This document shows, one piece after another, positions 32,301 through 62,854 of a DNA stretch of 64,000 nucleotides. Both the position numbers and the translations under genes were made by a program. Each line of letters opens with the position of its first letter. Position 1 is the first letter of the stretch. The stretch spans positions 1 to 64,000 of the forward strand of contig CACVBU010000354.1 of assembly GCA_902728285.1 (NCBI GenBank), given 5' to 3'. A model generated the notes under the pieces. That model was not told where the DNA came from. It was given only the letters and a program-made list of their open reading frames with translations, and searched no databases. This DNA is from Clytia hemisphaerica. Taxonomy: Eukaryota; Cnidaria; Hydrozoa; Leptothecata; Clytiidae.

Positions 32301-35300
32301 TCGCTTGTTATTTGCACAACAACATATTATTTTCATGAAAAATATGAAATTGATATTCATTTCTTGGGGGAAATACCAGTTTTATCCTAGCGTTATACTT
32401 ATTGGTTCATTAAAATCTAAGTACAATACCCTTTTAACAAGAGAGATCCAATCAAAATGAAACTTGTTTCTAAGTTATGCATTTCTTGTTTTGGATGAGG
32501 ATATTGTTTTTCCGACAGCGGATATCTTCCAGGGAGAACTAAATTAGACATTCTGTGAAAACTAGTATTGTTTTGAAAGCTTGAAGGAAGCATGATGGGG
32601 TTTACGGCTCGGAGGTCTTACTTCAATTTCTTACCGTAGTGAGCCAATTCTTATTATCGTCAAATGATTGATTATATCCGTTGAAAACTGGTTCTGTTGT
32701 TTAAATTTTTGTTATCTCTGGAATTTGTCGGGCCGAAATGCACGGATATGCAGCACACTCAGAATTATAAGGAACTCGAGGCTGAAAATGGTTAAAAAAA
32801 TATGGATGTTAAGGAACTGCTCAGGCTGAGAATAAGTGGATTTGAAAATAATGTACCTTATTGCGACTAATTTGACCAAATTTTGATCTTTCAAGGGGCA
32901 AAAAGTTCAAAATTTCCTATGTAGTAAGGAACTCGATAAGGAACTTTGAGACTGAAATTTTCTGTAAAAATAAGGAACTCCAGGCTCAGAGCAAAGTTAA
33001 GGTTCCTTATAAAATTTGCCGAGCCGAAATGCATGGATATTCAACACACTTAAAATTTTTCGCCTTTTTTTACTCGAAGGGATGAAACTGAAGCTATCTT
33101 TATTAAGTGAAAGTTTGAACATTTCAGATATTTTTCTTAGTTCTTTAGGTGTTGTATTCTGATACTAAATCGTACGTTTTCGCCAAAAGTATCAGCCCTT
33201 TGAAAACTAGACTAACATAATGTCGTTTTGGAAATCTTCTTATCTAGCTGGAAGTATTTGAATGATATTTTTGGAAGGGGATTGTCAAATTTCTCTGCTA
33301 TCTACAAGCATCAAAGCTGTTGAATTATTTAAAGGTGTGCCAGAAACGCTGAAATTATCGTACCCAGTGGAAAAATACACTTAAAATCCAGTGTGAATTT
33401 CCAGAAGTACATTGTTACTCAGTGATGATGAGAGCTCACTGAATACAATATGCTTCTGACCTTTTGAACTGTAAACAAAAAACAGTAATTGGAGAACCCT
33501 GATCATAAAACGGTGATTTTCCTTCCAAATAACTCATTTTATCCCAATTCGGTAAATTTTTCTCACCGGATAACTGAGACAGGGGTGTTAAATTAATTGT
33601 TAGAAATTGAAAATTGCTCCCAAAAATGTCTAGACTTCGTAATGAACCTCTTGACTTCTTCAACTTCACTCATTTTCAGGCAAGATTTTGAAACCACCTG
33701 TATCGATGATAAAGGGTACATCTAGAACACGAATTACTTAATAAAGAGAAGGTAGATAGCTGGAGACTTTTTTGTCAAAGTTTAAATTCCAGTGAAGCTT
33801 TCATAATAGTTATTCCGCCGTGTTCTTAAAGCTCACATACTTGTGTGAACCATAGCAGGTGCTCAAAAAATAAAGTCGAGAGATTTTTTTTCTTTTACTG
33901 TACACAAGATCAGAGGGAAGGCATATGCAATAGTCTTCTTTATCTTTTAAGACCTTAAGATCGGCGGAAGTCAAATCTAAGTGTATCGGACAAGAAAAGG
34001 TATGCACCCTCTCTTGCCATAATTTGCTTTAAATACCCTTGAGTATTTCAATTTCTAGAGTCATATTTTCCAGAGGCAACAGTCGAGACCGAATAGCAAG
34101 GATGGTTATATGCCCATATAGATCGAGAAGTTAACAATGTTTTGTAATTTCAACCTCAGATTATCATAAGTATTAGAGACAGGTGTTAAAATCAGTAACG
34201 AGCTTATGATCTTGCGTTTTTCTCTCTCGTTTAGAAGGGTTTGACTTAAGAAGGCTTAAACAGATAGCCTTCAACCTCATAAAAATAAATCTCTCTGTGT
34301 CTTCTCTGACATTCTTTGAAAAGTCAATCTTATAAGAACATACAGGTTTTTTTTATAAGAATGGTGTTTTTTCATTTCATCATGAATATTCTTAACTTTT
34401 TGGCGAAAATCATCCAAAAATATTCTTACGGTATTCTTAGGTTAAGATCGATATTGGCAATCTACAGGTTAAAATGCATTAAAAATGGCATTCTTAGATT
34501 TAGTTTGCTAAATTCAATGATGGTGATATTCTTACCATATTCTTAATTTTTTGGCCATTTTCATCATGGACATTCTTATAAAGTGTATTCTTATAAAAAA
34601 AGCGTGTAGACTGTACCAGTGACCAGTGTTTTCTTACTTTCTTCTGAAAAATATTTTTCTTAATATGGGTGTCATAAAAATACAGTTGACTCTCCAGAAC
34701 TCGAACCTCTACTACTCAAATGTCTCCTTAATTCGAACAAGTTTTCTTGACCCTTCAGTTAACAATGCCTTATAAATCAGTGTCCATAACTCGAAATTTC
34801 CATCATTTGAACAAATTTGAAATCGCCGAACGTTTGAGTTATGGAGACTTTATTGTACCAACTTTGGAAAAATGTTTTCCAAGTCTGCCCCAATGAGCTA
34901 TTCCATAAAAAATTTGTTGAGGAGATCTTTTTTTTAAAAAGGTTACCTCCCTGGATTTTTTTCCAATTTTTCAGGACCCCCTTAGATTTTTTTCTCCCAT
35001 TTCTTTGGACCACCCTAGATTTTCACCTGATTTTACTGACCACTCTGGATTTTCAACCTGATTTTACTGACCACCCTGGATTTTATCATTCACAAAACCA
35101 GAACAACCTGGATTTTTTATTTTCCAGACCAACCTGGACGTCACACCTCCTCAACATAGGGGGTACAGACTATTTCTGGAACAGCCCAATTTCGACTACT
35201 GCGTGGTACATTTTCAACTGATAAATTGAACTTTTGATGTAAATCTCATTACCATTTTACGGGGCAAATTTCTATACTGATAAACTTTTTTGTAAGAACA

Positions 35301-38300
35301 TTCAAAATTTCTAAAGCGTTCGAATGTTCTTAATGTTCTGAAAATGTTCTTGTTTTTACCATTTTGTAACATTTTGTAAGTATTATTGTTCATTTTCCTG
35401 AGAAATTGAGTGTTTTAAAGCCTTGAAATGTTCTTAAGACTTGTTCTTAATATTTTTGCCATGGAAGTCTTAATGTTCTTGTATAGCTTATTCTTATAAA
35501 AAATGTGTATCCCGAAAATGTGGGACAAATTTCTTAACTAATCCTAAAGTAGCAAAAAAACTTGAGGCTTGGAGTACTAAGCAATCCAGTTTCTTTTTCC
35601 ATCTTTTTGCATCTGTCTTCTTCACAGTGATGTGCCAAGAAATATTTTCACGATAAAATCCTAAATATGTCTTCGAAAACCAACACACGAGAAAACAAAA
35701 GAAGACTTTGAAGGGAAAGAATGTCTACTGAAGACGCACTAGAGGGAAGAAATCTCTCTTTCTCTTTCGCGGGGCCTGACCGACAACCTTGTTTTATGGA
35801 GCCCTTGATTTTTGAAGTAATGGTTCAAATTGATGTTTTTGAATATGCCTGTATTTTTCAGTAATCGCCGAAGCCGATAGTTAAAAAAACACCTGGAGAT
35901 AATATGAGAGAGTCTACGATATAGTTTAAAGATGAGGGAAATGCTTGAACGGTGGTGTATACTGTTGTCTCAGATGTATTCAGAATGGGAATGGTGTCAG
36001 GCTCCTCACTCTTCGTGTTTCGGTTTCAATATATGTTAGGTTTAGGCTCTAGACAGACTATGATGATTTGCTTCTTCTGACAACTTGTCACCTGTTGCGA
36101 TTGTTTTAATGACTGTTTGTCTGAAGTCTAAGTTCACATATACAGTAAATAACTGAATGTATGAAAATCTGGAGATCTTGAGACTCTCTTTCTTTTGCTT
36201 AAGCAATTCCCGCTCAGTGACCTGGTATACCTTGAAAGATGAAAAATATCTTACTACAATTCTTTTGGAAGATCTCTTGCTCTTAACGGTGGAGAGTTTC
36301 TGAAAATCTCACTTGAATGGTGTCCTTTCGGATCTGTGGTGCAGTGGTGTCCTGATAAAATAATTGTTTCCATTTAGTGCATATTGCTAGGAGCAGAAAA
36401 ACCTTTTGATTGTTGTAAAAATTATTTTGTTTGGCTGTTTGTTGGAATAATTGTTTACGTATTTATCTTATCTATTATCTAAAAATTCATCCTTTATTTA
36501 TAATGTTTTAAGAAAAAAGAAAAGAAAAAAAAAGACAACCTCAAATGTTTGTCTTAAAATTCTTTTTGTTGATTGTCCCTTTCAATGGGGTCTTCAAAAG
36601 AAAATGTTTTCGGAGTGAAGATTGACTTGGAATTTCAAAAAGACTTCTTTATAACTTCATCAAAATAACATGACTTTTCGACAATGGATTCATTTCGATC
36701 TATTGAAACTCAAGAGGTCCTTCAAACCAAACAAAATTCTTTTGGAAGTGACCAATAAAAGTTCAATACGAGTAAATCCGTTTACTTGGCTTGGCTTAAA
36801 TGGGTTTGATTTTATATGTTGATATATTTACTTTTTCATATTATCTGATGATTTTTGTGATATAAAGCATTTATTTTCACCCTCTATGCTAACGTTTATC
36901 TTTTGTTTGCGCTTGGCATTGTGAATGAATACGATAAAAATCATCGGAAATTTGGGACGGTAATTCTGGAGAGCTGGCCGAGATGAATTTTTCGATAACA
37001 TTGAATGGTTTCAGACCACCTGCACCTCCGATATCGTTACCCTTTTAGATTAGCTAAGACTTTTTTAGTCGAAAGGTTATTGTTTTTGCTAGTACGATAA
37101 GACCCCAGGCAATGGCATAATCATTTTTATAGAGTACTTTGGAACACCTTATTATCGTGAAAACTTCAGACTTAACTTATTATTCTGCGAACAGATCTTG
37201 GTTAATACGAAAACTCCATAAGAGATTATTATCGCATTTACTGGATCCTAGAGCAGAGTGCAGTGATATTAGAATGGGTGAGATTAATCTAAGCTTTATT
37301 TAAATGTTAAACCTTAAGTATCCTGCGATTTTGCACCCTTTGTACTTTCTCTTTCACATGATTCCCACGGAAAATAATCTTAATTTTCGGCATCATTCAC
37401 AGGACAGGGGTTCAACAATCCCACTGTTTTATCACTCTCTTCAATGTCTCTGTGAATCCCTTTCTTTTTATTCTTCTTCTTTCACTACTGTAAAAAAGGA
37501 TTTTTTTTCTGTTTGCGGTTTTCTAAATCTCATCCGCTTGGAGTGGTCATGTACTCTGCATGTGTTTTCTCTCGAAGGAAGAAGAAGAACAAGAAGATAA
37601 AGACGATCCCTGAAGATGAGAGGATAAAAGAATTTTTATTATTCATGAAATCAAAATGAAAAGAAAAGAAAACCACATAAAAAACACAGTATGAAAATTA
37701 TATACCAGGCCTTCTGTTATTGACATGCATTGGTTACTGTGTCGTGTTCTAAACTCGCCATCATGCAGGTTAGATTGCTGTTTCGGACACCCAGTGGTAT
37801 TGGATGAGTGGCAGGTGGTAGGGATATGAAGATCCCAGCTGGCACACAACGTTGTTTTAACGTTCATCTAACGTTATATGGACGTTGTGAACGTTAGATA
37901 AACGATGAAAAAACGTTGTGTGCCAGCTGGGATAGTGCCACTCGCACCACTTTTTGATTTACTAATTGACGTCTTACAACAAACCTTTCGTTACCGCTAT
38001 CCGAATCATGAAAAAGTGACATAAGTAGGTCGTGTTATTCAGTTAGCCGGTTAGTCGATTGTTTCCCAGGGGTCCACAGCCAGCTGCCTCAGAACTGAAT
38101 GGACCATGGAAAGAGTTGGGGGGAGGGTTGGAACCAGGAGCCTTTTGTGGTACTGACAGCGCAGATCACTCAGCCATCGCTTTTCATACATAATGGAAAT
38201 AAAAGGGGGTTTCGTTAGGTTTTTGTATTTGCAAAATCTAAATGTCTGTCATTTTTGTCTGTAAATTTCGAATTCTTTGATCAAAACTTTTCATCGATTT

Positions 38301-41300
38301 GCTCTTTGGCAAAATTCCATAAAATGTCCTATTGAACTTACAATTTTAAATTTGTCAGTATTGGTGGGATTTATTACTTTATCACAGTGTGGTTCAAATT
38401 TTATGCGCACAGCTAACGTCAAAAGTAAATGGTAGGACACTCTATAGGGAAAATTTTTATGTTTTGAAAACATCTGCCTTTGTTGTTGTGGAAAGAGGTC
38501 TGTTTGTCGTCCGTCCTCTTTATATTCTTTTTCTTTCTTCTTTTTAACTCTTTCGACTTTCTTTTTATGTTTTTATGTTTTTGTTTTTATATATCACGAA
38601 TCACGACCATCGTCATCGCTTTTGGTAGTGACGAACCGATAACTGTTGCTATGTTTTATTGGTGTCGGTGTCGGTTTTACTTTGTTTGGCAATGTTTACA
38701 CCCTGGTGACCCAATGAGGATATTTACACAATCAGTGACAATACAGGAGCTAAATATGATGATTTGGGGTCAAAAATACTGTATACTCCTAAAAGATTCT
38801 GATAACTCCGCGTATGGCACGTATTACTCTGAAGACTAAGGCTGAGCTTGAAGAAAAAACGATGGCACCAAAAAACGTCCATCTTAAACATAAACATTAG
38901 AACGCAGACGTTTTGGCTTTCCAGTTCAATGAAAATTACAGTGAATTTCCATAAGAACAATTTCAGAACATTGTTCTCACCTGACAAGATTTCTGGCATA
39001 ATTTCGCGATTAGATAGAATCGGCATTTTTACGTTGATAGTCAAGTTATCTAGAACTTTTAAATTAATTTTGTTACGGGTCTCTACAGCCTGGGATTAGT
39101 ATTGATTAGTTTAGATTGCAATCAATGATCAGTTTTATCGATGTGACGGTTTTTTGTCCGAGTGAATAAAAAAGTTCACTTTAAATTCTGAGCACGTGTC
39201 AGCAGAAGTTGCCATCGTCAGTTCACTTAATCCTTAAGAAGAAGATTTAGATTTTAAATCTCTTTACTCCTGTGGCCAGCCTCGTTCTTTGCTATGTGTA
39301 GGTGAAGGAACGGACGAAAATAAATTCCAGCAAATGTCGAAATTCACATCCCTTTGTTCCTCTTTTGGTACGCATGGGAAAATTTATGCTTGTTCATGTT
39401 TTTTTCTTTCTCTCTCCAAACGGAGATAGCTTTTTCACATGGGAGAATATTTTGTGATATTGGACTGATTTGTAAATACAGGTTGTGTTTGTTTTGGTTG
39501 GGTTGTTTTGTTTTTTATTTATAAATTTGGTAATCTGGTTGATCATAATGTGTTAATGATATAATGAAGGGAATCAGTTCTTGTGAAACTTCATTGCTTT
39601 TTGTTGGTACGGTGTTGGTACGGTGTTGGTACGGTGTTGGTACGGTGTTGGTACGGTGGAATCTGTATAACTCGAAGACTTACGGTGGACACAAATTCGT
39701 TCGAACTATGGAATAGGGTTTGACAAGCTAATTTGTTGAGGAGGCATTTGAGTTATAGAGGTTCGATTCAAAGAGTTTTCACTGTATTTTGTTCTGAAGG
39801 AATAAGTTACTTTTTTAGCTTTTCTCATCATCTTTATTTGTAAATTGGAGGAATACATGGGGTAAAACATAAACCCCTTCCGCTAGTGCTTCGCGTAATG
39901 GATTTTTTTGTGGGCGATTTTTTTGGTACCAATTCTTTTGTTTTATTTCGTAGTTTGAGCTTTTTGTCACAATTTATTGCATGATGAGCAAATGTTGCTA
40001 ATTTTAGTGATTGTAGAAAAGATTTGATGTGATGTGATTGTAATGAGTGGCATGACGATCCAGGTCCTCTTGCAATTTCTTAATTTCTTAAGGTTGGAAA
40101 TGCCATTGTATGACATTGTACTTTATAATCATGGTATACAGTATGTATATTAACTATGAGATGTTTTTCTACGTCACCAATTAAGTGATTTTTCAAAATT
40201 TTCCAAAATTTAGACAGATAAATTAGACAGATAAATTGAGAAATTACGTTGTCGCGTGAAAAATATGTATTATATATTTTTGTCGTGAAAAACACATCAG
40301 AAAGATCAAAGTGAGCCGCTCTTTGTTACTGTTACAAATAAGAAGGGGGCGAAAGAGAAAAAGAGTATGAATCAGAAAATTTGAGGGGTGAGAAAAACCT
40401 CTTTTGTTCCACATGGCTTTATTGATTTTGTAAGAACTTTTTCATTTATAAGAAATTCGAAACATTTTTTGAATTTATTTTTGAAACACCTGATATTTTA
40501 GTTACTAAAACCCTTATCTCAGTACATTGTCAGTTTTTGTAGCTTAGATCGTATTTTAGGTCGTGTTTGTCAAAGTTAAGTTTCTTTCAGCCTACTGATT
40601 TTCAATTTAGATATTGTATATTTATCTATTTTAGCGATATCTTTTGTGAAATTTGTTAGAATGGTTCAAGACTACACCTTAACTTTGTTATTTTGTTGGA
40701 AGGATAAGACAGAGTGGAATTACTCTTCTTTTTGTTAAAAATTGATTTATGGAGATGGAAAATGAAGAGGAAGAGAAGATTTTTTAGCGTATTTAAATTC
40801 GTATCTTAATTTCTATTGTCTTTCCTGGATGGATTAATAGAAAATCATATTAAATTAGGGTCGTTTTTGCCAAATTAGCCAGTTTTAAGCCTGATTTGAA
40901 GCAAGATATGAAAAACATACAAAAAGTGCTCATACTTTGAGATCTTGCACTTTAAAAGTAGTTCTTATAAATTTAAAAAAAGCAAGAGCTGAGAGCGCTC
41001 CAATCCAGTGACCGTACACTGTTTCAATCTTCAGAATCTTTCACTGTTTCTACTTACATCATATTCCTTTTTCTTTTTTTTATCTCCATCACTTTTTTAT
41101 CTTCTTTCTCTTTTGTTGTGTGAAGTGTACAACAAAAGCAGTTGATGAAGTTTTAATCAGTTCACACATTTAGGTCAGGTGTTAGGTCATTAAAAATTAA
41201 TTAAGTATATTTCTTACTACATCAACAGCCACCTTTTATACAGCTTATTCTTCTTTTGTTTTTTTTGAAAAACTTTTCCGTTTTGTTGTCGTTGCACCTG

Positions 41301-44300
41301 AGCCTTTTTATCACCTCTCTATTATTCGTTGTCTTCTTCATCTTCTTCTTCATCTTCAGGTTCAAGAGAAAAAGTATTCTTTTTTCACTCATTTTCATTC
41401 ATGGATTTCTTGTTTTATATCGCTTTTGTCTTTTTTTTTAAACTTCTCAATTTGATCTTTGTTGTCCATTTCCCTTCTTCAACAAGGGATCTCTCATAAC
41501 CCCCAATCATTACCACAAAAACTTTTTCTATTATTTCTTTATTTGCGTTTTTGCGGTGAAAACAAGATTATTACGCTGTTTTTGGTCCATCTACACAGAT
41601 CTCTAAAAAAACCAAGCTGTAAACCTTTGGCTGTGTATTTGCTGGTCTTTAGTAGGTTCATGGTACAAGATTTTGTTCTTTACTCTTTTTTGGTTTCTTA
41701 ACATACCGGGAAGCTTAGTTTTTTAGTTTGGCCGTTTGGCTTAGTTACAAAAGAGTGTGATAAGCTGCTGTCATCATTTTTTGTCCCTATCTCATTGTCC
41801 ACAGATAAATGGAAGCCCAAGTTTTAAACTTACGGGCGTAGTTTTTCAAAAGCAAAAATGCTAAGGGGTTTTTGAATGTGTTTCATCAAACCGGGATTAA
41901 GCAATATTTTTTACTAGTTAATCCATTGGGTTTTTTAACTTGATCGTTCATCGGGGCTCGAAATTTATCTTTGAATTAATTCATTGATCCAGTATTAAAA
42001 AACTTTTTTTGTAGTTCAGTGGTCATGCTTCAGAATTTATTTATTATTAAAATTCAGGAAAAATTAAAAAAAATCCACGTTTTTGTTGGATTATTTGTTT
42101 GGTATTGGTGGAATAATTCAAAAAACAAAACAAAATAGATATAATATAATCTGACTGCAGTAAAAAAATGAAAGAATTATCATTGACACCTGATTCGTTG
42201 CTAGGTAAGTAAAAATGACTTATATTTTCTGTACAAGGTATACCATTTCTTATGACCAACTGCGCTAAACTAAACTATAAGTTTAGAATATCACAGATTG
42301 GCTTCAATATCCAACCTGTCAGAGCATATTACATAAAGCCTGGGATAGACGGGGACGAGGTTGGATGACTACCTAATGGAACAAAAAAAGCCTTTTTTTC
42401 GACACAGTACATTTAAAAAAATGACGACTGGCGGAAGATGAACTTTTTTTGAAAAACAAAAAGAAATTAAAATGAAGTAGTAGCGTAGTCACCAGACTTG
42501 TAAATTTTTAATGTCTGATCAGAAATAACTTGATTATATTTGACCATCAAATTCCTTCTTTGTGTTTTGTCAAACGATATTATGATATTTTGTCAAACGA
42601 TATTTTTTACTTTTTTACTTTTTTTAATATATTTATTTATTTTTACTCCTGTTGTTACACGAGATCAGATCAGTAGACATGGAGTATTTCATCTACTGTA
42701 TTGTTCTTTTGATAAGTTTCGTTTTAACTTTCTTTCAATAACCATTTTCAGGTGTAATATACTGACCTTGTACTGACTAACTCTTTTTCTAATCCTTTTC
42801 CTGTATTTCAAAGAAAAAGTAAAAAAAAAATTATAATTTAAAAAGTTTTAGATGGATTAATTTCAATCTACTTTTTGTTACTACTATGAAGCACTAATCA
42901 TCATTGAAATATTAGTCAATCTTAGTTGTTTTGACATGTTGCAATTGGTATCTTTTTTGGTGATATTATGGATTTTGAATTAATGATACCTTTTGGTAAA
43001 TGATTTTGTTTAATTTCTGTTTCTCTTCACTCTTCTTTTAATTTGCAATTTTCACACCTAAGAAATAAAAAACACCGGCATTATTCTCAACGTCACTTTT
43101 TCAGGTAAAGTGACTGATTTAAGCCATCATAGGCAACACAAGTGAATATCGTAAAAAATATATTGTTTTTATTGTTTTCCTTTCCCCGAAGCTTTTGATT
43201 GTTCAAGCGCCGAAATTCTATTGTAATGTCACGTGACCTAGGTCGGATTTCCTACCTAACCACGGCACACAGCAACACGGCACACTTTTCAGAGTTTCCA
43301 CTGTAAGAAAGTCTCCCAAGAGGTGTATTTAGTCAAAAATAGGCTCTTGGCATGCGTGGATGGTAATGGTTGGTTTTTATGCCTTCCCAAGTACAACAGA
43401 AAGTAAAAAATATCCACACCATGCCCTCCCCCTGAAAGATACGAGAGTATATAGAGGTATATATAAAAGCTTTTTTTGACTCCGAAAAATTTTTAAAAAC
43501 CCTGATGCTGCTCTTTCTATATTATATAAGCAATGGTGTTTTGGAAGGATGTACTTGATTGAAGAAAAACAACTCAATAATAACATTTCAAAACTCAACG
43601 ATTTTTTTTTATGTTAACTGGACATTTTTAGGCTGTATTTCTTAGAGTACTTTTTGATTTTTTTGATATCGGAATTTTTGTTATGTCTTACGTATGTGGA
43701 TCGTGATACAAAGGCTCAATTTACAAATCAACCCCACGAGTCCTTTAATTCCAGATTTTTAAATTTCCCGATCTTTGATATAGAAAAAAACATCCTTTTG
43801 ACAAGTATTAATATATTAAACGAAAGATGAAGAGAAAAATGCTTATATTAGATGCCTTAGAAAAAAAGGTAGTCTTATTTCATTTATTTTGATCGTATTT
43901 TTCCCATCTCTGCCAGAAAGTTCTAAAATACTACACGCACGGCCCTTTCCCAAAAGCTGTACCAACGTCAACACCGTATATTGTCTTATTTGTGCATTCA
44001 GAAAGTTCCAAATAGACTTCTCTTAACATTTTCTGATCTCAGCGTGACAGCAGTTTTCTCAACGAAAATTGAAAATACTTAAAAGGGGGTAAAGCTGGTA
44101 AAAACACTTGCCTTATATACTCTTTTGGCTTTAAAAGAGCAACAAAAGGTCGATAAATCATGAAAGTTTTCAAGTTTTCATCTTCGTGGATATTACACTA
44201 TGAAAACACATTGAAATGTTGAGCTTTAGAAAAAACTTTTGTTACAGACAAGGTAGATAGATTATTGACAAATAGTTGTTGATGTCTACCAAACTCTTTT

Positions 44301-47300
44301 TTCGCGGAAAAGACTATACAAAGTACGCGCCAAGTTATGCGGTTTTAATTTTTTAGAGTACGGTACATGCTATGTTTTCAGGTGCAAACGCAAATTTAAT
44401 AGCTTAACCAAAAACACAACAAAAATCGGACCAAAATTAGTTTTACAGTTAACAAATTTTTTAAAAATTGGAAATCGTTGCTTTGAGACAAGATTTACAT
44501 TGACACTACTTGGAAACGTTTGACCTGTTCAAATTTTACTTTTAAATTTCGATCCACTTTTCTATTTAGATGGTGAAGATGACATTACGTCACTGGCAGA
44601 CGCCGACATCGGAGTTGATCGTACTACGCAGAAACGTCGATATAGCCGACTGTCGGATGGTTATGAACGTTTAAAGTCAGTTTTACCAACCGTCAAAGAT
44701 AAACGTCGTGTATCAAAAGCACGAATATTAGATGAAGCTATCAATTACATTCAAAGGTTGGAATCGATCACGAGTGTACTCAAACGAGAACACGGTATGA
44801 AACAATCTTTCATCATATTACCTTATCGGCATTTTTTACACCGACCCCTTCTATGCCGGCCCTTATTGCGCCAAAGCTCAATTCTTTTCAAATTTTACCC
44901 GGCCGTAATTTAATTCCGGTCCTTTACGCCGGACCTTATTACACAAGCGATAGAAAAATATATATTAATAAGGGCCGACGTAAAAGGGGCAGAAAGGTAA
45001 CTAAATACACCTTTTCGACCGTAGCCGCCAAATGCCGCGCGGAAATTTTTTGTCCGTTTTACCACCATAAAACCGTCACAGTCCTTTTTCGCACCTATAG
45101 ACAATAGAAAAAGGTGTTAAAAAGGATTGGATCGATTTTAGGGGGATAATCAAATAATGAATTGGCACGCGCATGACCGCGCGACTACGGTAGAAAAGGT
45201 GTATTGTCTCGATATTTTGATAAATGAGTTGCCACAGTTCCTCTTGGTGGCCGAATAGATGGGCTTAAAACGCGTAGTAAGCAAGTGTAATGATAAAGAT
45301 GGTCAAAGGGAAAAAGAATATTTTCGGGTAGAGGTTACTATTGCAAAAGCGTAAAGTTTATTCTTTATTGCTGTTCTCTTGACCATATACTTTTTAACAG
45401 CGTTGTCTCGAAAAAGCATATTCAAATCAATTTACATAGATAATTGCATGCCTATTGCCAGACGATGTTGAAATCTTAGACGCGGGGGATGGGAGTCTTA
45501 AAATGCGTCTTCACCGCAAATTACATTGCAAGGTATTTCAAAATATTTTGTCTTTTCTTCATTTAACAGAAAAACGACTGAGCATGCTGAATGGAACGAA
45601 TGGCTTTTTCCCAGATTATACTGTGCAACCTTACATGAGGTTAGTCTTCAGTTTTCCTTTATTATGTGTTTTGTTTGTTCGTGTTGATTATTTTTGTTTC
45701 CATTAGTGATGCCTCGATTGAATTAATTTCAGCTATTGGATTTAAAATGGTGCAGGCACGGCGACTGACCAAAATGCAATTTAGGTGGTATTGATTTTAG
45801 CGAATGACTGGAGATTTCATGCAAAACAAATTTTATTCGGAGAAAGAAAATGAAAAATGTGAGATTTTTCAGAAAATTGATAGGGAAAAAATATTTCTCA
45901 AAGAATTATGGAGTGGTAGTTACGGCACTGAGAAAAAGTGCTAAAATTTCTATGAATATCTATTTGATATTCTGATGGCGGATTGGTGGCCGCCCACGCT
46001 AGAGCTCTAAAGGAAGCGGGACAATTTTCCATCGGACTGGAATGATAGTTGGCCTTTGATGTGCCGCATCCCAGTCGAGTTCAACTACCCCACCCACAAA
46101 CCTGGAAATATTTCAGTTGGACCCGCCAATCCCCGAAATAGAGGGCTGGGAAATCCACGATGCGGTCTAGTGAAATTTCGTAAACTAAACTTTCCAGTAT
46201 GTTGAGAATTTTTCCGACCTTCAGAGCTTTAGCGTGTCGGATTAAAATTTTTGAATTTAATAGCAACGTAGTAAAGTAAAGGTAGGGAGTATATAAATTA
46301 ATAGCCAATTTTCAGACCCTGTAATATCTTTTTCCGCGCATCAGTCTTTTTCAAATGGACTACACACGCAGACTTGAACCAGTTGGATATCTAAAGTTAC
46401 GCTTTTTTAGTTTACAGTTATGGCATTTAATAGTCGAAAATCTTTTTTCACAAAATGCAAAATGATCTTTTAATGTTCTCACCATACAGATTTTATAAGA
46501 ACAGGGTACAGGGTGTTTTAAAGTCCGCAAAGCTTTAAAATGTTCTTATCTTATTCTTAATATTTTGGCCGTCGAAGCCTTATGTTCTTATATAGTTGTT
46601 CTTATAAAGAAACCTGTATGCTGCCAGTTGGTTAAAATCAATGTAAAAAAGAGGATTCGGAAAAAAACTCTACAGGATGGAAAAAAAAGAACATGCTTAG
46701 AAAAGAAATTTTATTGCAATAGTTTTTATTTTATACTGGTAGACTAATTTGATATGCAGTATCCAGCTGTGTTTTTTCTCCATTTTACCTTCAAAATATT
46801 ATTCCGTTTTTTTCAGACCTCCTTCTGGCTTCTTGCATCATCTTAATTAACTAAGAAACTTAAAAAGGAGTCTCTTTTTGTTACGCTTCCCCCGTAGTAT
46901 TTTACCCGAAATTGACTTCAATCGTCATTTTGCAATCAATATCTCGAACTTCAATAATGCCTCTTTCGCATGTCCTATGTGTGGAATCTATCTGAGGTAG
47001 TTTTTCACAAATTTATTTTTTCCATTGACAGACAAATAAAAAACACTTCAAATTTAGGCAAATATAACTTTGCTGTAATTTTGGTCACATTTTTTACACG
47101 AAAATATCTTTAAATTACTTTTAAAGATTACTATGATCTAAAGTAACTTTTCAACGGTAGTTTGTTAAAATTTGTTAAAATTGAACCATTTGTTGAAAAA
47201 TGGCTAGCAAAACAGGAATTAGCGCACCCCTAAAATAAATGGACTTGAATTTGGAGAATAAAAAAGAAGGATGGTACTGCCTGGGTGGGTGGATCCTCTT

Positions 47301-50300
47301 CCCACACTGAAAGGGTGCCGCCAGTGCGTTGGTGATTCTTAGAAAAACATGGTATCTTTCATAGTATTTTAATAAGTCTGTTACGGATTTTAGAGGGAAT
47401 ATTCAAAATAAAAAATAGATTTTATTGTTAATAAAACTATTTATGATCCTTACTTATCCTTGAACCATATGCAATAACACTGATTTCAAAACTTTAAAAC
47501 TACCTTTGCAATACAAACTATTTATCATACGAACGAACGTATTATATGTTTAGGAGGAGACCCATATTTGGTTTGGTTCAGTGAAATACCAAAGTCGTAT
47601 TTATATGATAGAAGAGAAAATAAGAATTGAAGTTGTTTCCTTATGAATCTTACTTCTTCCCTTTTTAAATTTTAATAAAAATAATGCATCAATTTAATGA
47701 AATGCTCTACTGGTAGTATTACAGGCCGGTTTGTAGTGTGCTACTGAAGTTTATTCACGATAAGTGAATCCTTGATTATCGAACGTTATCACTGTGAAAA
47801 GATTTCTCAAAAATAATCATTCAGTCAAAAGATATCAAACAAAGTTATAAGCTGATTGACGTCTAATAACGTTTTTTGGGGTCAATCACTTATTAACTTT
47901 GTAAAAATATTTTAGTGAAATTTCTTCACAGTGATGACTTCCTAAGATCAAAGAATCTCTCCAGTGAAAATGAAAGTTATAGCACTTCTCTACAAGATCT
48001 TCATTTTTTTCTTCTTCATTTTCATGTTCGTTTTTAGAATCTTTTTAAAGATTTTTTTATTTCAAATTGTTCCACTCACAAATATCTCTCCAACGATACC
48101 AAATTTATAAAGATTGAAGAATTCCTTCAAAAGTTAAAGGTAAATGAAAAAAGAGTGCAAACTTATCGTGAACAGACTTTAGTAGATACTCAAGAGGGAT
48201 GAAATTTTTTGATGATTCTCCAGCTCAGTGATAAGTAACCTACAGGATACTGTCATATTGAAATCTTTCACTTTCCTTTGCAATAAAATTCACGAAACAA
48301 AGATACATCCAGATTTTGCAAAAGAAAAACAACAATTCTTTACATGGTCATAATTTTCTGTTCGTTCTTCTCCTAAATGGATTTAATGTAGATTCAAGGG
48401 AAGCCAAGAAATGAAATTTGCCATATTGCACCTTTCCACAATTAGTTATTAGATAGAGGCTGTATTTTATATTTTACGTCGACAACCCAATTATCTAGGA
48501 CTTTTAAACAGTCTTTTGATTGCTATCCACGGGGTCCACGGCCAACCGGTTTGGCTATCAATGGATTGAAAGGACTGGAACTAGAAGGGACTGGGCCTCG
48601 ATCCAGGAACCCCTGGGTTTTAGGGTTACCACTTTAGACCACCCAATCGCTCCTTAGATTCAAGGTTCGAGGTTTTAAATGTTAGAGGCAATTAGGGTGT
48701 CAGTCCACCCACTAAGCATTATTCACAATTATAAACACATACACTCAACTCTCTCTATTCGAATCTCTACGATTCGATATGTAATGATCTCTGTTCTTCG
48801 AATCTTTCTCTAATTCGAATAAAATCTTTGATCCTTCGAATATCGAATTAGAGAGGGTTAACCGTAAAAGTAAAGGTCTTCTTTAATCAACGAACTTTCG
48901 GTCGTGAAGAATATGATGAACCTGAGGTTAAAAAATCAGTTTATTTATTCTCACGAAATCGGAAAAAATCGGTTTATTTATTCTCACGAGAACGAAAAAA
49001 ATCAGTTTCTTCATTCTCACGGAAACGGAAAAAAATCAGTTTAAAACCTCACAAATTCACTGAGAGATTATCAAACTTAAAATATGGTTTTTACTTTTTA
49101 TTTTTATTTTCCACTTTTTATCTTTTTTGGACGATCAAAATACTGTTAGGAAAATCCCTTTCCGACAAACCTGATGGTATCTTTGATGGTATTGCAGCTG
49201 GCACGCAACGTTACGTTGTTTGGGAAGTCTTTTATGGGGGAGTACTTAGGAAAAAAGGGTACTGGACCTTATTCAGCTCCGCCAGTCCTATGTAGAGTCA
49301 AGGAAAAAGACAAACAATTGAAAAATAGTCCCGCGTAAAGGACTTGAGTCATTTTCGGGAAAATCCAAATATTTGGAACTTTAGTCTCGTCCAGTGTAAA
49401 TTTTTTCCCAAATTTCTGCAAAAATTAAAAAAAAGATTTCCCCCACGTCGGGTCCACTTCTCTTTTTTAAATGACACACTGTATTTCGAAAATGTTCTTA
49501 CAGGATGAGATATCTTTTCTGGGTCATCATTGTAAAATATGCTGACATTTCTTTCAATGCTAAACCCCCTTGCTGCGGTCGAACGTGGTCTAATAACGTG
49601 GTCAAGAGCTTACAGTAGCTTTAAGGGAATTTTAAGGGTTGGGCCTTTTGTTCTCTATGTTTTAGTGGTTTTCTTTGATTTTAACCGTTATGTTTAAATA
49701 TTAATAAGTGGGTTTTTAAGTATGCTGTTTTTCTTTTACTTACTCGCGTGGATCCCTTATTAGCGAATTTATGTATTTACACTTTTGAGCATGGTGGAGT
49801 GACTGAAACGTTTTGAAAAAACCCGCAGTTGTGACCCGCGAAATTGTGGACGGTAAAAGTGCTTGTTTACCATCATCCTCAGTCAATCAGGATCTAGACA
49901 AATCAAAAGCTAACCGTTTCAGTCACAGAAAAATACAAACACATAAGACACCCCTGTCTCACAGCCCCACTGGAATTTTTTTCCTCAGTTTGATAAAAAT
50001 TCCTATTGAAATCCCGATGGGAATAGAAATTTTATTGTTTCAAGGTTAAAGCATCCAGTGAGGATGGATTTGGAGTGCAATTTCTAAACATTGGATCTCG
50101 AATTCCCAGTGGGGCTAAAATTCCAGGGTATTTTCCCACCGGGGACGAAATTTTTGCCAAATTTTCCAGTGGGGCTGGGGTCCCAGCGGGTCTGTGACAC
50201 AGGAGTGTTTTAAAGATTTTAACAGTCTTGCGATGGCTTTCACTTTGTTCGGGGGAGAATTAGGGAACTAGAGATTTGAGCTGGAACACCTAGTTTTCAA

Positions 50301-53281
50301 GTCTTTTAGATTTTTAAATCTTCAAAGAATATATTATCAAGTCATTGTCATCATGATGATCAAAATATTCAAAACGAATATTTTAAATAATTATGAAATA
50401 TACATGAGAAACCGAAAATCAGGAAAGGCGGAGGTATTTTAATTTCTATATATATTATTTAGTATCTATCTTTCATAACGTTGAAAATATTCCTCTCGAG
50501 TATAAAAATAATTTTGTGTATAGTGTGTCCGGAAAAAGTTATTAAAATAATTTCATAATAATAATTGATAATATTAATACTAATAATCAATTCCCAAAAA
50601 AGTCAAATAGGTTTTGAGAAATTTGAACCAAGTAACAAAAATTTTCTACGAATATTTGCAGACTGCGTCACAGTGATTTTTTTAGGTTTGGCAGGTCCAT
50701 CCAAGATATTTTCAGGCTTAAGCACAGACAGTTAAGCCCGACTGGGGATGTGGTACATCATAGGCCACCTAAATCATTTCTCCCCGATGGGAAATTGGCC
50801 CGCTCCTTTAGAACTTTAGCGTGGGCGAGGTACTCTTGAAATATTGCGCGTGTATTTTCAAGAAATTTAAATGGTCTCGTATCTCAAGGTGTGAAATACA
50901 AACCATAAATTATTCATCCTAAAATTCCTTGAGATGGTCTTATAAAATATATTGGTATTCAAAATAGAAAATATATTGCCCCTTTTCCTGTGTGAAATAT
51001 TTTGACTTTTGATTACAGTTTTGAAATTATAGACTTTTCGTTTTCACACGTTTGAGATTTCCGAATATATTGTAGAATTATTTTCAAGTAGCTTGGTCTT
51101 TTTCTCAATACCAACCGCCAAAATGATTTACTTGGTGGTTATACTTTCCACATACCGTATTCATGGTCCAAAGATCTACCCTAGTCTGTCTGTATTAGAA
51201 ATGCCTCCGGCCGGATGTTCCCCAAAAATGTTTGCCTTATTTTTTTATGAGAACAGTGAGGGCTCAAAAAACAAAATTATTAAGTAAGAACATTTCAAGC
51301 AAATCGAGGACTTAAAAAAAATAGAGGATAAAAAAAATCGGAATTATCGCTCTCAAAATATGGAATAAAAAAGAACAATTTGCTGAGGCTAAAAGCTTTG
51401 AGTAAAACAAACATATACACTCCTTACACTTTTTATAAGAGCACTTTAATAAGAACAATGAGGCTCAAAAATGTCAAATCAATAAGTATAACTGAGCATC
51501 ATGAAAAAATTACTAGTTCTAATAAAACAAGTGTAGCAGGCCCGGCGGAACAACTGTAAAAGTGAGGAAGCTGAAGGCTCAAAATGAGATAAAATTTCTT
51601 AGGGATTTGATAAAAAAATCTCATTTGCTCAAAAGTAGGGAGGCTAAAGTCTCCCCATCCTCCCCGCTTCCGCCGGGCCTGTGTAGGTTAAGGAGTAACG
51701 GGGTGATTGTACTGCGGTTCAGCTGATGTGGTTGGCATATTGCAATGTCTTTTAGTATCGCTATGTCACAGGGAAAAAGATGGTAAAATTAACATGGTCC
51801 AGTGAAATATTTGATAATATTGCTTAATTTGTTAAGTAAATATTATACAGTTTTTGATTTGGGCCGCCATTTTGTTTAAAAAAAAACACCTGTTTAAATT
51901 TGCGAAATTATTTTATTCTTCATTTTTGATTAATGATAATTTTCGCATCCTTTTCATATTATAAATACGCATTCCTTTGTCATAGATTTGTAAGGATGAA
52001 TTTATTTGAATTTCTGTTTAATCAGACGTTTTAAACATCAGCATTAAATTGTTTTAAGTCCGAGACTAGCCCACTGGCCATTAATCATTTTTTTGAATTC
52101 TCTAAAAAGCACAAAAAGTCATACAATTATACTTGACTTGTCATAAGCATTGAAATAGTCCTTAGGAGAAGAATCCATTTAAATTTATCTCATATTGTTT
52201 GTATACATCGTACGCTCATTTAAAGCCCTTCTAAAATCTACACTTCAAATCGTGTTTCTGATCTACGCCATTAGAAATGCGCCAAATGTGTGATGGATAG
52301 TATTGGTAGTATACACAAACTATATAAGAACATAACCCTTCAAAATGGCCAAAATGAAGAACAATTTAGGAACATGTTAAGGCTTCGCAGACTCGAAAAC
52401 AGCTAATTTCTTAGGAAAATGGACAAAAATGCAGAAAAAGTGGGGAAAATAAGAACATTTTGAGAACATTTTTAGGCATGAAACTCAAAAAGTTAAGATC
52501 ATCCGTAGGCTTAAAAAATTTTGGATGTTCTTATAAATAAAAAGAGGGTAAGTCATTTACGGTGACTAGTTAGGAGATTTCCGCTTTTTGAAACATTGAT
52601 TCTTTTTTCTTCTCCAGATCGATATTCCAGAAGCAGATGTACCCAACAGGTAGCAATTCCAAAATGTCTAATTACTCAAAAATGAACTCGCCAACCTCCA
52701 CCGTACCAAAGTCACCACGAATGAAACAATACAATCAATCCTCCTACTCCTCACCTTCCTCAATGTCGGTCAGTGCTGGAAGCACGGGTGGTAATGGTTC
52801 TGCCAACATGACGGGCGGTGGCGCCCTCGATTATAATTACAATAACATAGGAAGTACGTATAATACCGCGTCATCAATGTACAATCAGCAACCAACCAAT
52901 GGTGGTTCAGATCCAAATCAAATGCTGAACGGTGATTCGTCACCTATCAATAATGCATCACCTTACAGCGCATGCTCCCTCTCCCCAGGTTCTACACCGA
53001 CTACATATCAAAATGGCAGCACGAGTAGTGTGGTAAACAATTCATGGCCATATCAAGGTGCTGGCATGAGTTACAATGATGCCAGCTCACAATTGGCCTC
53101 ATCTTATAACCCGAACAGACAAAGCCCAAACAGCACATACAATACCTCAAATCCCTACTCCAGTTTGAACAGCGGCATGTGGGGCACTATGGGGTCAACA
53201 GGTGGGGGCGTGGCTGACCAATCATCACATATGGCTCAAAACGCGGCCGCAACTGCTGAACACTCAATGAAAGTTGCATAA
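28809..53281 (+). CDS. bHLH transcription factor, four coding exons, 498 aa
   Basis: Joining 28809-29346, 44570-44794, 45570-45639 and 52618-53281 gives 1497 nt with no internal stop. Every junction is GT-AG, with phases 1, 1 and 2. The protein is a probable nuclear DNA-binding regulator. Residues 1-179 are S/N/P-rich, with a basic KKRK patch at 33-36 and an amphipathic NEIFELLNEFW stretch at 134-144. The bHLH covers about 196-244: basic region 196-206, helix 1 207-218, a short loop with VKDKRR, helix 2 228-244. A short helical extension reaches about 261. Residues 285-498 are low-complexity S/N/Y/G/Q, typical of activation or disordered regions. By eye helix 2 (RILDEAINYIQRLE) resembles both the MyoD group and the Max/Mlx-type groups, so I do not assign an orthologue. 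The Glu that normally reads the E-box is Gln200. The gene model is strong; its family is open. Confidence 0.88.
29668..29745. repeat. Dispersed repeat, copy 1
   Basis: Shares GTCT(G/A)G(C/T)GAAATT(C/T)CGTAA, CCTTCCAG and CCGACCTTCA blocks in order with 46160-46240. Confidence 0.6.
30826..30956. mobile_element. Family A MITE, right half
   Basis: ACAAAAATACTCACAACAT, GGCTTAAAACC, AAAACATCCAAAAGGC and GTTCTTATGAAAAATCATGT are family A landmarks; the left end is missing. Confidence 0.55.
32722..33057. repeat. About 45 bp direct repeats enclosing AAGGAACT motifs
   Basis: 32722-32766 and 33013-33057 share TTTG(T/C)CG(G/A)GCCGAAATGCA, GGATAT and CAACACACT-like blocks. Between them AAGGAACT(C/G) recurs at least four times near AGGCTGA words. 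Confidence 0.6.
34341..34607. mobile_element. Family A2 MITE (TATTCTTA type)
   Basis: TACAGGTTTTTTTTATAAGA to TTCTTATAAAAAAAGCGTGTA with TA edges. The interior (CATCATGAATATTCTTAACT, TTCTTAATTTTTTGGCC) matches 53797-54132 closely, so both belong to one subfamily. Confidence 0.78.
34681..34857. mobile_element. pogo/Tigger-like MITE
   Basis: TACAGTTGACTCTCCAGAAC at the left; the reverse complement of the right end reads TACAATAAAGTCTCCATAAC. TA edges, CAGT-type termini and internal AACTCGAA phrases are typical of pogo-type Tc1/mariner MITEs. Confidence 0.7.
34947..35140 (+). repeat. Irregular tandem repeat of about 30 bp
   Basis: Units of the form CC(C/A)CTGGATTTTCA..CTGATTTTACTGAC recur. The apparent protein (repeats of LDF and DHPGF) is a product of the repeat. 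Confidence 0.7.
35281..35509. mobile_element. Family A MITE
   Basis: TAAACTTTTTTGTAAGAACA to TTCTTATAAAAAATGTGTA with TA edges. Same orientation and landmarks (TTTTCCTGAGAAATTGAGTG) as 14836-15101. Confidence 0.68.
37832..37933. mobile_element. 102 bp AACGTT palindrome
   Basis: ATCCCAGCTGGCACACAACG at the left and the exact reverse complement at the right. The arms contain AACGTTCATCTAACGTTATA and the mirror phrase AACGTTAGATAAACGATG. Near-perfect hairpin; fragments recur at 25033 and 49194. Confidence 0.8.
38066..38180 (-). mobile_element. tRNA-derived SINE (copy 1)
   Basis: Read on the minus strand it starts GCGATGGCTGAGTGATCTGC (pol III A-box-like), has GGTTCCAACCC (B-box-like) about 40 nt on, and ends with GCTGTGGACCCC. 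The tail is shared with 48529-48655. Confidence 0.55.
39604..39658. repeat. 11 bp minisatellite, five copies
   Basis: TTGGTACGGTG five times without change, abutting a pogo-like fragment at its right. Confidence 0.95.
39657..39786. mobile_element. pogo-like MITE fragment
   Basis: TATAACTCGAAGACTTACGG to GAGTTATAGAGGTTCGATTC and a CACTGTA end. The left terminus is lost at the minisatellite. Confidence 0.55.
44570..44794 (+). CDS. bHLH gene exon 2: bHLH domain
   Basis: The exon starts after TCTATTTAG and ends at CACG before GTATGA. It encodes residues 180-254. These are an acidic lead-in (DGEDDITSLADADIG), then the basic region TTQKRR at 198-203, helix 1 RLSDGYERLKSVLP at 206-219, and helix 2 from VSKARILDEAINYIQRLE at 227-244 onward. 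The hydrophobic core positions of both helices are filled as expected (Leu207, Tyr211, Leu214, Leu218, Ile232, Leu233, Ala236, Ile240, Leu243). The whole domain sits in a single exon. Codon Q200 (44629-44631) occupies the position of the conserved Glu. Confidence 0.9.
44795..45569 (+). other. Intron 2 of the bHLH gene (775 bp) with a small inverted repeat
   Basis: GTATGA to AACAG. It contains a GC-richer hairpin at about 44847-44992. The arms share the pattern CCCCTT..A.G.CGGCCCTTATT, and the loop carries more CCGGNCCTTATT subrepeats, so it is a probable MITE inserted inside the intron. Confidence 0.6.
45570..45639 (+). CDS. bHLH gene exon 3 (70 nt micro-exon)
   Basis: A good polypyrimidine tract ending in AACAG at 45569 and a donor GTTAGT at 45640 bound a 70 nt exon. 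It takes the reading frame from phase 1 to phase 2. Without it, exon 2 joined to exon 4 runs into a stop after about 20 codons; with it the 214-codon open frame of exon 4 is entered correctly. It encodes E255 to M277 and continues the helix after helix 2 (EKRLSML), then an aromatic stretch NGFFPDYTVQPYM. A weaker upstream acceptor at 45460-45461 would lengthen the exon in frame by 36 codons. Confidence 0.8.
45978..46240. repeat. Dispersed repeat, longer copy
   Basis: The right part matches 29668-29745. The left part (CCCACGCTAGAGCTCTAAAG to CATCCCAGTCGAG) matches 50735-50830 in reverse complement (CGACTGGGGATGTGG to TTTAGCGTGGGCGAG). Family unknown. Confidence 0.6.
46485..46618. mobile_element. 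Family A MITE, internally deleted
   Basis: TACAGATTTTATAAGAACAG to TTCTTATAAAGAAACCTGTA with TA edges. The interior keeps only the half with GCAAAGCTTTAAAATGTTC and GGCCGTCGAAGCC. Confidence 0.65.
48529..48655 (-). mobile_element. tRNA-derived SINE (copy 2)
   Basis: The minus strand reads GGAGCGATTGGGTGGTCTAA, then GGATCGAGGCC as a B-box-like site. The tail contains TTGGCCGTGGACCCCG, matching the tail of copy 1. Diverged, no transcription terminator seen. Confidence 0.5.
48740..48866. mobile_element. TA-flanked MITE with TTCGAAT motifs
   Basis: TACACTCAACTCTCTCTATT and the reverse complement end TACGGTTAACCCTCTCTAAT. Internal TTCGAAT(C/A) phrases. Related in style to the pogo-like copies. 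Confidence 0.6.
48930..49042. repeat. About 33 bp tandem repeat, three copies
   Basis: AAAAAATC(A/G)GTTTATTTATT followed by CTCACGA(A/G)A(T/A)CG units, enclosed by GAGGTTAAA and TTTAAAACCTC. Confidence 0.75.
49236..49468. mobile_element. Family C MITE, diverged
   Basis: GGGGGAGTACTTAGG start, TCCGCCAGTCCTATGTAGAG and CCCACGTCGGGTCCACTTC match the interior phrases of 17610-17911. A fragment of the AACGTT palindrome family (49194-49222) abuts it. Confidence 0.6.
49948..50208. mobile_element. Family B MITE
   Basis: ACACCCCTGTCTCACAGCCC to TCTGTGACACAGGAGTGT. Best-preserved interior of the family, with repeated CCAGTGGGG(C/A)T and CCACCGGGGACGAAA phrases. Confidence 0.78.
50735..50830. repeat. 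Dispersed repeat, copy 3 (inverse of 45978-46070)
   Basis: CGACTGGGGATGTGG..GGCCCGCTCCTTTAGAACTT is the diverged reverse complement of 45978-46070. Confidence 0.55.
51425..51535. mobile_element. Family A-related MITE, short
   Basis: TACACTTTTTATAAGAGCAC to ATAAAACAAGTGTA with TA edges; the interior has AATAAGAACAATGAGGCTCA. Confidence 0.55.
51537..51681. mobile_element. 145 bp MITE with CAGGCCCGGCGGAA ends
   Basis: Exact 14 bp inverted termini CAGGCCCGGCGGAA, flanked by TGTAG at 51532-51536 and 51682-51686. It inserted exactly at the right end of the preceding family A element. Confidence 0.72.
52312..52550. mobile_element. Family A MITE
   Basis: TACACAAACTATATAAGAAC start, landmarks AGGAACATGTTAAGGCTTCG, AAATGGACAAAAATGC and TTTTTAGGC, end TTCTTATAAATAAAAAGAGGGTA. 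It lies 68 bp before bHLH exon 4. Confidence 0.7.
52618..53281 (+). CDS. bHLH gene exon 4: low-complexity C-terminus and stop
   Basis: The acceptor TTCTTCTCCAG ends at 52617. The exon completes a split Arg codon (R278), runs S279 to A498 and ends with TAA at 53279-53281. The composition is extreme in Ser, Asn, Tyr, Gly, Gln, Thr and Met, with Ser-Pro pairs (for example VPKSPRMK, SPYSACSLSPGSTP). This suits a disordered activation or regulatory tail with possible proline-directed phosphorylation sites (inference). No second folded domain is visible. Candidate poly(A) signals AATAAA lie at 53295-53300, 53407-53412 and 53762-53767. The last lies about 480 nt past the stop and just upstream of a MITE, and looks the most usable. 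Confidence 0.86.
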
Positions 53282-56542: not shown

Positions 56543-58596
56543 TTTTTTTTTTTTTTTCGTTTCTCTTTAATCACCAAAAATATGGTATAATATACTAGCC
56601 GTATTGTATAAGGGTTGCGAAGCAATCCAGACTCCACCTCAATTCGCAAGTTGCTAGCAAAATAAGAGACACTCTAAAACAGTCTAAAAATCCCTCTGAT
56701 AAATAAAGCCGCTATAGAGACAGGGTCGTAAGCTTACCCTGAGTTTTCAAAGAAAATAGTAACCTCTGAAGACAAATAATAGAAATTTTATCGCGCATGT
56801 GTCAATCTAATCACTGTAGAAAAAATCAAAGATGAAGAGCAAAATATTACCATATTAATGTCTAGCAGACTGTATCAGTATGCAGTTTACTATTTACGAA
56901 TTCCCTAGAAACCTCCAAGTGTAGTTGAAATGAGTTTATTTCGAAAGAAATCTTTTACATGATCCCCAAATGTATAACAGTAATTACTAAACTTTTAATT
57001 ATGGAAATGTCACTTTAATTGAATCGAAATAATAGACAGACTTTATGTTATGATTCTCTATCACTGACTCTTTTTACAAAGCATTGATGACTTTTTGTAA
57101 GTTGTGTTTTCAACGACGGGAATAAAAATATCGACTATGACGCTCATCCAAGATCTTGGATGGTCCTCATGGTTACTTTTGTCTTCGCTGATTGCGCGAT
57201 GAATAGAATCTCGATTCGTCGGCACAGCGTTGTAAATATATGATTTTGAACTGTGCTTTTCACGGTATCGTAAGCTAAGAGCCTTAATGCCCCAAACACA
57301 CCACATAATCTACGGAGGCACAACACCCGCCGCCGCGCATCGCTCTTTTTTTCCTTCTAGTTATTCTAGTGTAAATGGTGCCTTAATAAATCGAACATTT
57401 TTATTCGAATCACAAATCGTCTGTCAAAATCATCAAAACATAAAAATAAAACAAAAACAAAAATGTACAAAGATGGCTTGTTGGTTCTTGGGCAGTTTTG
57501 ATTTGTTTCTTGACAAATTGACAAATTTGATTACCTCCGTACTTCTTTATCATAGAATATCCACTTGGTTTTGCAAGGTATATAAGTTTCGTTCATTAAA
57601 AGAGCACTCCTCCCGCCCGCCCGCGCGACTTGCAAAAACCTCTCATTGATTGACCTTATTTGATACTTGATACTTGCTGTTAAAAGTCAAGGGATGATGA
57701 AGATCCTTTCTGTCAACGTTCAAACTAATTTTTTTCATATAACAGCAAAATAAACATTTAAAATCGAAGAACCACTGCTTAGATTGCTTAGATGCGTGCC
57801 GCCCGCGCGGCAATTTGATCAACTTCAGATTCTAAGTCCGTGTTTCGGCTTCCGGTAATTTTGTTGCTGTTCACTGTTAGGGTACACCATTTTAAAATGG
57901 CATTTTTCGCAGTCCTAGCTACCAAACCGAGAAAGTTTCTGTGGCTTCAAGACAAACCATTCAAGGTCATTTTGATAAAATCATCGGTTTGGAGATGTGA
58001 TTTATATAGCAAATTTTATAGCAAATTTTCGCTTGGGATAGAAGTTAAAGGTACGTGCACAATATAGCAAAACTGCTTCGCTCATAAATTCGCTTCGCAA
58101 TAACTCTTGTTTGAAAAAATAATTTACACTTAAAAATTTCGTTTTTATTTACTTTTTTTTATAGACTAACAAACGAGTTGGAGTGACTTCGCTTCCCCGG
58201 GGGCGGGCTCATAGATCCGCTACAGGGCCTATCCGTATGGAAGTATGATATGCCCTAGGGAAAGCCAGGTCATCTCGCTTACCCGTATAGAATAAAAAAG
58301 GGAATCACCTAGGATGAGCCCGCTGATATGTGTCACTTAACAAAGAAACTGTGATTCCCTGACCTATATGGGAGTAAAACCTCGATAGAAATCAAAATCA
58401 AAACAAAAGGTAGCAAAAACCCAGGAGTAAGATCTCAAAAAACCAACAACATACCTCAAAAAATCAAAACAAAGTATAAGAGAGGGGTTCCAAGAGAGGG
58501 ATACTCTGGTCTGGTTGGTGTATGTAGAGAATTAGCTGCAATAACTGAGGATAAACATAAGGCCTAGAGACACAGACAAGGGGAGAGCGGGGGTAG
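56543..58596 (-). mobile_element. 2054 bp poly(A)-tailed insertion inside the Penelope inverted arm
   Basis: The left inverted arm is interrupted exactly here. AGT at its left end (56540-56542) recurs at its right end (58597-58599), giving a 3 bp duplication. Read on the minus strand the insert ends with ATTAAA, a few bases, and a run of 15 A (plus-strand T run from 56543), as expected of a reverse-transcribed RNA. No open frame in it looks like a protein. It could be a non-autonomous LINE or SINE-like element or a processed non-coding transcript. The short duplication is atypical for L1-type insertions, so the mechanism is uncertain. Confidence 0.6.
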
Positions 58597-59127
58597 AGTG
58601 AACTTGTTCACGTGACGGCATTTTGAAATCAGTTCATTCCTGGAATTCAAAAGCTTGTCCGGGTTCGGAAATGTAGCGATTTCAAGCTTCTCCGCGAGAC
58701 AAAGTGAGCATTTCAGCGACGAACGGTTGAACGGTGGGCACTGTCGGATGGTTTTCCATGCGATTTTTGGCGATAGGTTTTTTCGTTTTAACCTCCAAAC
58801 TTCTTTTGACAATTCCGTCTCTTTTTCGTAGCGGTGGTTTGCGAAAGAAGACTTGTGGTTTGCGAAACGTTTTTTGAAAGCAGGTTCGGCAAGTCCGATA
58901 TAAAACTTCTCGTCGTAATCTGGTTCTTCCTCGCATGTTACCGTGGCTTGGTATACTGATCGCTCAACTAAACACGATCCGTTCAAGGGACAGTTGGCTT
59001 TTACCCTGCAGTTACATAGTCGGTTGTCTACGTTCTCGTTTGCTTCGTCTTTCAGGATGTTTTTATTGTGACTCTGTATGATATTTTTCATGTTTTTGGT
59101 GCAACTATAGCTGACTTTGACAGTGTT
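58564..59127 (-). pseudogene. Inverted partial copy of the Penelope-like GIY-YIG ORF
   Basis: The reverse-strand frame from 59091 encodes the same residues as the forward copy from MKNIIQSHNK to VNKFTL without an amino-acid difference. After that it runs into inserted sequence (PPLSPCLCL) because the 2 kb insertion splits the element at 58597. It lacks everything upstream of the forward copy's position 59529. It is a passive inverted arm, not a gene. Confidence 0.82.

Positions 59128-61267: not shown

Positions 61268-62854
<1,587 letters not shown>

Follow-up and report, generated by a model that had tools for sequence, protein, structure and literature searches.

A complete HLH domain preceded by an apparently degenerate basic region in a predicted protein of the hydrozoan Clytia hemisphaerica

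Among the described proteins closest to the one reported here are helix-loop-helix (HLH) proteins that lack either the glutamate at site 9 of the basic region (Glu9) or the basic region itself. Id/Emc proteins (group D), whose mark is the absence of a basic region, are short, and in human E47 we take Glu555 to be site 9. Apart from some PAS proteins and Id, every basic HLH (bHLH) factor binding the CA core is described as having Glu9; the PAS proteins devoid of Glu9, such as AHR, HIF1A, and SIM, bind noncanonical half-sites and act together with a partner (PMC8431614). The bHLH sites contacting DNA and phosphate are given as sites 1, 2, 5, 8, 9, 12, and 13 (PMC3502508). When Glu555 of E47 was replaced by each of the 19 other residues, every variant showed loss of function in a luciferase reporter assay; eight of them are listed as potentially dominant over the wild type, a list in which the Gln variant does not appear, and the main text of the report does not name the Gln variant (PMC11286708). 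In engineered HLH inhibitors, an acidic run takes the place of the basic region, as in aMax (PMC7780693), and an acidic form of BHLHE40, carrying an extension of 12 acidic residues, is described as being without visible effect on eye morphology (PMC9680343).

According to our splice model, the protein considered here is encoded on the forward strand of a C. hemisphaerica contig (CACVBU010000354.1, assembly GCA_902728285.1), whose first 64,000 nucleotides were analyzed as a whole and are referred to as the window. The predicted gene spans positions 28809 to 53281, where the stop codon ends, and comprises four exons, all of them open, which are joined by three introns of the GT..AG type with consistent phases and encode 498 amino acids. 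Exon 1 (28809 to 29346, + strand) holds the start codon and residues 1 to 179, a Ser/Asn/Gly/Pro-rich segment in which residue 33 marks a KKRK motif. Exon 2 (44570 to 44794, +) carries the end of an acidic run, the degenerate basic region, and the complete HLH; exon 3 (45570 to 45639, +) adds a short stretch beyond helix 2, EKRLSMLNGTNGFFPDYTVQPYM; and exon 4 (52618 to 53281, +) encodes a C-terminal tail enriched in Ser, Asn, Gly, Thr, Ala, and Tyr, followed by the stop codon. The open reading frames (ORFs) of exons 1 and 4 gave no Pfam match up to an E value of 0.01. The GC content is 0.41 to 0.47 in the four exons and 0.34 to 0.39 in the three introns, with values of 0.448 for exon 1 and 0.337 for intron 1 (29347 to 44569), which lies directly 5' of the HLH exon and extends over 15,223 bases. 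In exon 2, the 59 bases 5' of the Gln200 codon have a GC content of 51%, compared with 32% in the 100 bases preceding the exon, and because of this rise the part of the exon before that codon looks coding. Little contrast is seen at the 3' border, with 40% from the Gln codon to the exon end and 39% in the next 100 intron bases. A preliminary description of this DNA, made from its letters alone, had read the locus as a bHLH domain in which a single Gln replaces Glu9, and our rebuilt model reproduced its 498-residue protein, its Gln200, and the CAG codon of this residue at 44629 to 44631 (+).

Several other elements were recorded in the window. A perfect inverted repeat (58594 to 59130 and 59526 to 60062) has 537-nt arms that are 100% complementary and 395 nt apart; it contains open frames on both strands, none with a Pfam match up to an E value of 0.01, which read like a retroelement protein, and it is due either to an inverted duplication of recent origin or to a palindrome of the assembly. 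An actin coding segment is found at 61271 to 62143 (-) (PF00022, E value of 3.5e-118), covering profile positions 79 to 410 of 410; the N terminus must be encoded by a different exon or at some other place. Tandem arrays occur at 3815 to 3948 (22-bp unit, 6.1 copies, 98% matches), at 6411 to 6831 (123-bp unit, 3.4 copies), at 39602 to 39658 (perfect 11-bp unit, 5.2 copies), and at 48930 to 49043 (33-bp unit, 3.4 copies, inside a 147-amino-acid open frame). Repeat pairs of at least 60 nt were not reported within 29347 to 52617, and the window yielded no tRNAs and no Rfam match at gathering scores.

The HLH domain is real and complete. Exon 2 matches PF00010 with an E value of 6.4e-12 and 45.5 bits, compared with a gathering score of 20.7, which places the two helices and the loop within the bHLH superfamily; the alignment covers profile positions 10 to 53 of 53 and starts only at K201. 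Helix 1, the loop, and helix 2 occupy residues 205 to 244 (44644 to 44763, +), as indicated by the Pfam and PDB matches, and the preliminary description, whose domain at 44617 to 44763 corresponds to D196 to E244, was right that both helices are present. At core sites 16, 20, 23, 27, and 28 the residues are L, Y, L, L, and P, and helix 2 retains its starting Lys, as read from the sequence. When the 2,986 stop-to-stop ORFs of at least 15 amino acids in the window were searched with an HLH profile made from 41 hand-typed domains, there was one clear match (E value of 1e-12), the next best having an E value of 0.43. A leucine zipper following helix 2 was looked for by eye only and dropped as a candidate.

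The basic region is of a different quality. Using the standard 13-site numbering anchored on the ungapped helix 1, sites 1 to 13 correspond to residues 192 to 204, DIGVDRTTQKRRY (44605 to 44643, +), and read D1 I2 G3 V4 D5 R6 T7 T8 Q9 K10 R11 R12 Y13. Site 9 is Gln200, encoded by CAG, where the E-box binders of groups A and B have Glu, and the absence of Glu9 in the preliminary description is thus upheld. That description also regarded the basic residues beside the Gln as intact, which holds for sites 10 to 12 only. We compared the region with a panel of 41 bHLH domains typed by hand, of which 38 are not Id/Emc and whose letters are comparable with PDB alignment rows only for the MAX domain and, as regards the HLH, for ID1 and ID2; TCF23 and SIM1, missing site 1, were left out of the basic-region scoring, and 34 Glu9 proteins were scored. 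None of these 34 panel proteins has D1, I2, D5, T8, Q9, or Y13 at the respective site, while R6 is found in 1, K10 in 9, R11 in 12, and Arg at site 12 in 33. Site 12 is, therefore, the only typical one among the contact sites listed above. The combination at sites 5, 8, and 13, described as xRx in group A and BxR in group B (PMC3502508), is D5, T8, and Y13 here.

The log-odds total over sites 1 to 13 is -5.8 when scored against all 34 Glu9 proteins, compared with 13.0 to 35.7 for every one of these panel proteins, each scored leave-one-out. Values for proteins devoid of Glu9 were 10.8 for HIF1A, -3.5 for AHR, -14.5 for EMC, -14.9 for ID2, and -20.4 for ID1, so that the Clytia region falls between AHR and Id/Emc; the AHR score is unsure, since site 9 of AHR is Ser in the panel but Ile in PMC8431614. 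Clearly positive per-site scores come from K10, R11, and R12, and V4 is barely positive (0.2). Swapping Glu in at site 9 adds 6.1 and brings the total to only 0.4, registers from -4 to +4 score between -16.2 and -3.2, and the stretch ranks 45th among the 486 13-mers of its own protein. A shift by one residue, as suggested by the QKRR motif that the protein has in common with the MLX of the panel one residue out of register, was rejected (score of -3.5, still without Glu). The net charge is +2 over sites 1 to 13 and -1 over sites 1 to 8, where one basic and two acidic residues are found, and there are four basic residues in all; because each of these values equals the minimum of the 34 Glu9 proteins and does not undercut it, charge alone does not set the protein apart, and the distinguishing feature is the per-site pattern instead. 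On this pattern, most contact positions of the DNA-reading part look eroded, which is more than the swap of one residue, and the single-substitution reading should be replaced by that of an HLH with a degenerate basic region. Two observations go against calling the region degenerate: R12 and two further basic residues remain, and a real DNA binder, AHR, scores nearly as low.

Because Glu9 and most of the other contact residues are missing, the protein should not read CANNTG by itself. With the E47 Glu555 variants it has in common the loss of the key DNA-contacting Glu of the basic region, whereas the rest of the basic region is normal in those variants and mostly atypical here. Conversely, because R12 and two other basic residues are kept, the protein may contact DNA weakly or at sites other than an E-box. 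The reading in which Gln9 and K10-R11-R12 would recognize another kind of half-site, either unaided or next to a partner with Glu9, in the manner of AHR, HIF, or SIM with ARNT, draws on these three residues, on the closeness of the score to that of AHR, and on the noncanonical half-sites of the PAS proteins (PMC8431614). However, acidic residues stand at sites 1 and 5, both of which are listed as contacting DNA and phosphate (PMC3502508), and sites 1 to 8 offer a single basic residue. The comparison with AHR-type proteins made in the preliminary description breaks down on the group C marks that were tried: Arg13 (PMC8431614) is replaced by Tyr204, and no PAS domain was matched by Pfam, up to E values of 1 or 0.01, in the ORFs to which exons 1, 2, and 4 belong. 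AHR, HIF1A, and SIM are hence similar in being devoid of Glu9 and different in having Arg13 and PAS domains. Support for a new non-CANNTG half-site is here limited to K10-R11-R12, and we deem both that half-site and the reading built on it unlikely. The resemblance to Id/Emc goes further in the HLH than in the basic region. In PDB, the best sequence matches were ID-1 (E value of 3.9e-5) and ID-2, followed by Max and MyoD, while ID-3 was matched only with an E value of 1.1. When the HLH alone was compared with the 41 panel domains, ID1 was best (score of 84, z of 15.3), ahead of ID2 (78) and FIGLA (72), and ID1 and ID2 were the nearest tips by distance in the HLH-only tree; among the 38 other non-Id panel domains, FIGLA alone has an Id/Emc protein as its best match. 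In the reverse direction, ID1 is matched better by FIGLA (95) and TAL1 (91) and equally by NHLH1 (84), the Clytia HLH ranking third of 39 for ID1, fifth for ID2, and tenth for EMC, a control that weakens firm Id orthology without disproving it. Neither FastTree tree yields a clade with Id alone: the smallest clade holding the Clytia protein comprises 23 of 42 tips in the full tree (support of 0.63), in which MLX and TFAP4 are nearest, and 25 of 42 tips in the HLH tree (support of 0.77), and family assignment by trees was consequently dropped. The likeness to Id/Emc thus consists of an intact HLH, a poor basic region, and the two top PDB matches; the difference lies in the retained K10-R11-R12 amid otherwise mostly atypical contact sites, in a length of 498 amino acids with long low-complexity flanks, where Id/Emc proteins are short, and in an HLH similarity that is not Id-specific. 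Membership of Id/Emc is not established by these comparisons, and we regard an Id/Emc orthologue with a basic-region remnant and a long tail as quite improbable. FIGLA, PTF1A, BHLHA15, MLX, and TFAP4, from groups A and B, are among the next-best HLH matches behind ID1 and ID2 in the panel, but all five have Glu9 and full basic regions. The marks of Hes/Hey (group E) are an Orange domain and a Pro or Gly that is usually found at site 6 (PMC8431614); here site 6 is Arg197, and Pfam gave no Orange domain in the ORFs of exons 1, 2, and 4. No NCBIfam family was obtained, and pattern searches for relatives of the exon 2 protein gave 59 matches in viral contigs and 116 in prokaryotic genome contigs, with none confirmed in either set, a result that says nothing on animals.

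Two further readings concern what precedes the HLH. The basic region is preceded by a 21-residue run with 10 acidic residues and 1 basic residue, residues 176 to 196 (EEEKDGEDDITSLADADIGVD), whose exon 2 part lies at 44572 to 44619 (+), coinciding with the GC rise at the exon border. By analogy with the acidic-extension inhibitors, this run might pair with the basic region of an E-box-binding partner and hold it off DNA, the long tail then serving a second, regulated function. The Clytia run differs from acidic Max and acidic BHLHE40 in being less acidic, in having Gly and Ile-Thr-Ser-Leu, and in being followed by RTTQKRR; we treat the resemblance as a lead and give the idea of a natural counterpart a slim chance. 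The protein could also be the product of a relaxed or decaying gene, or the true protein might use another exon for its basic region, for which the long intron 1 would leave room. Against this stand the four open exons, the fitting splice signals and phases, and the higher GC content of the exons. A narrow scan of phase-0 GT donors from 20000 to 44560, asking for E or Q as the last residue and at least five K/R among the last 13, gave no alternative basic exon, and the HLH profile saw no second HLH exon among the ORFs of the window, so that a hidden normal basic exon is rejected or at least weakened, and a decaying gene or an error of the model seems to us very improbable.

In our opinion, the protein has probably kept its dimerization domain and lost most of a recognizable basic region, so that it most likely serves in heterodimers without reading a CAN half-site of its own. 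The preliminary description had held that the locus does not encode a dominant-negative HLH protein devoid of a basic region; with most contact sites atypical, the protein is better read as an HLH that is deficient in E-box binding, and the suggestion of a needed partner appears likely. The HLH would be expected to pair with an E-box-binding bHLH protein. The outcome could be titration of such proteins, in the manner of Id, or an asymmetric dimer on DNA in which the partner would read a single half-site, K10-R11-R12 would contact the backbone, and cofactors would be recruited by the Ser/Asn-rich tail. We infer the loss of E-box reading, the dimerization, and the direction of the effect from the sequence, and the length of 498 amino acids together with the Ser/Asn/Gly-rich tail may favor more than simple titration.

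Orphan bHLH proteins are already known in cnidarians and sponges (PMC1828162, PMC5064789), and if the arrangement is not conserved, the Clytia protein would be one more divergent orphan bHLH. If it is conserved, it would add to the known ways in which HLH proteins have lost DNA reading, here with a large tail kept, and it would allow three consequences of losing Glu9, namely loss of function, dominant negativity, and altered specificity, to be compared in a natural protein.
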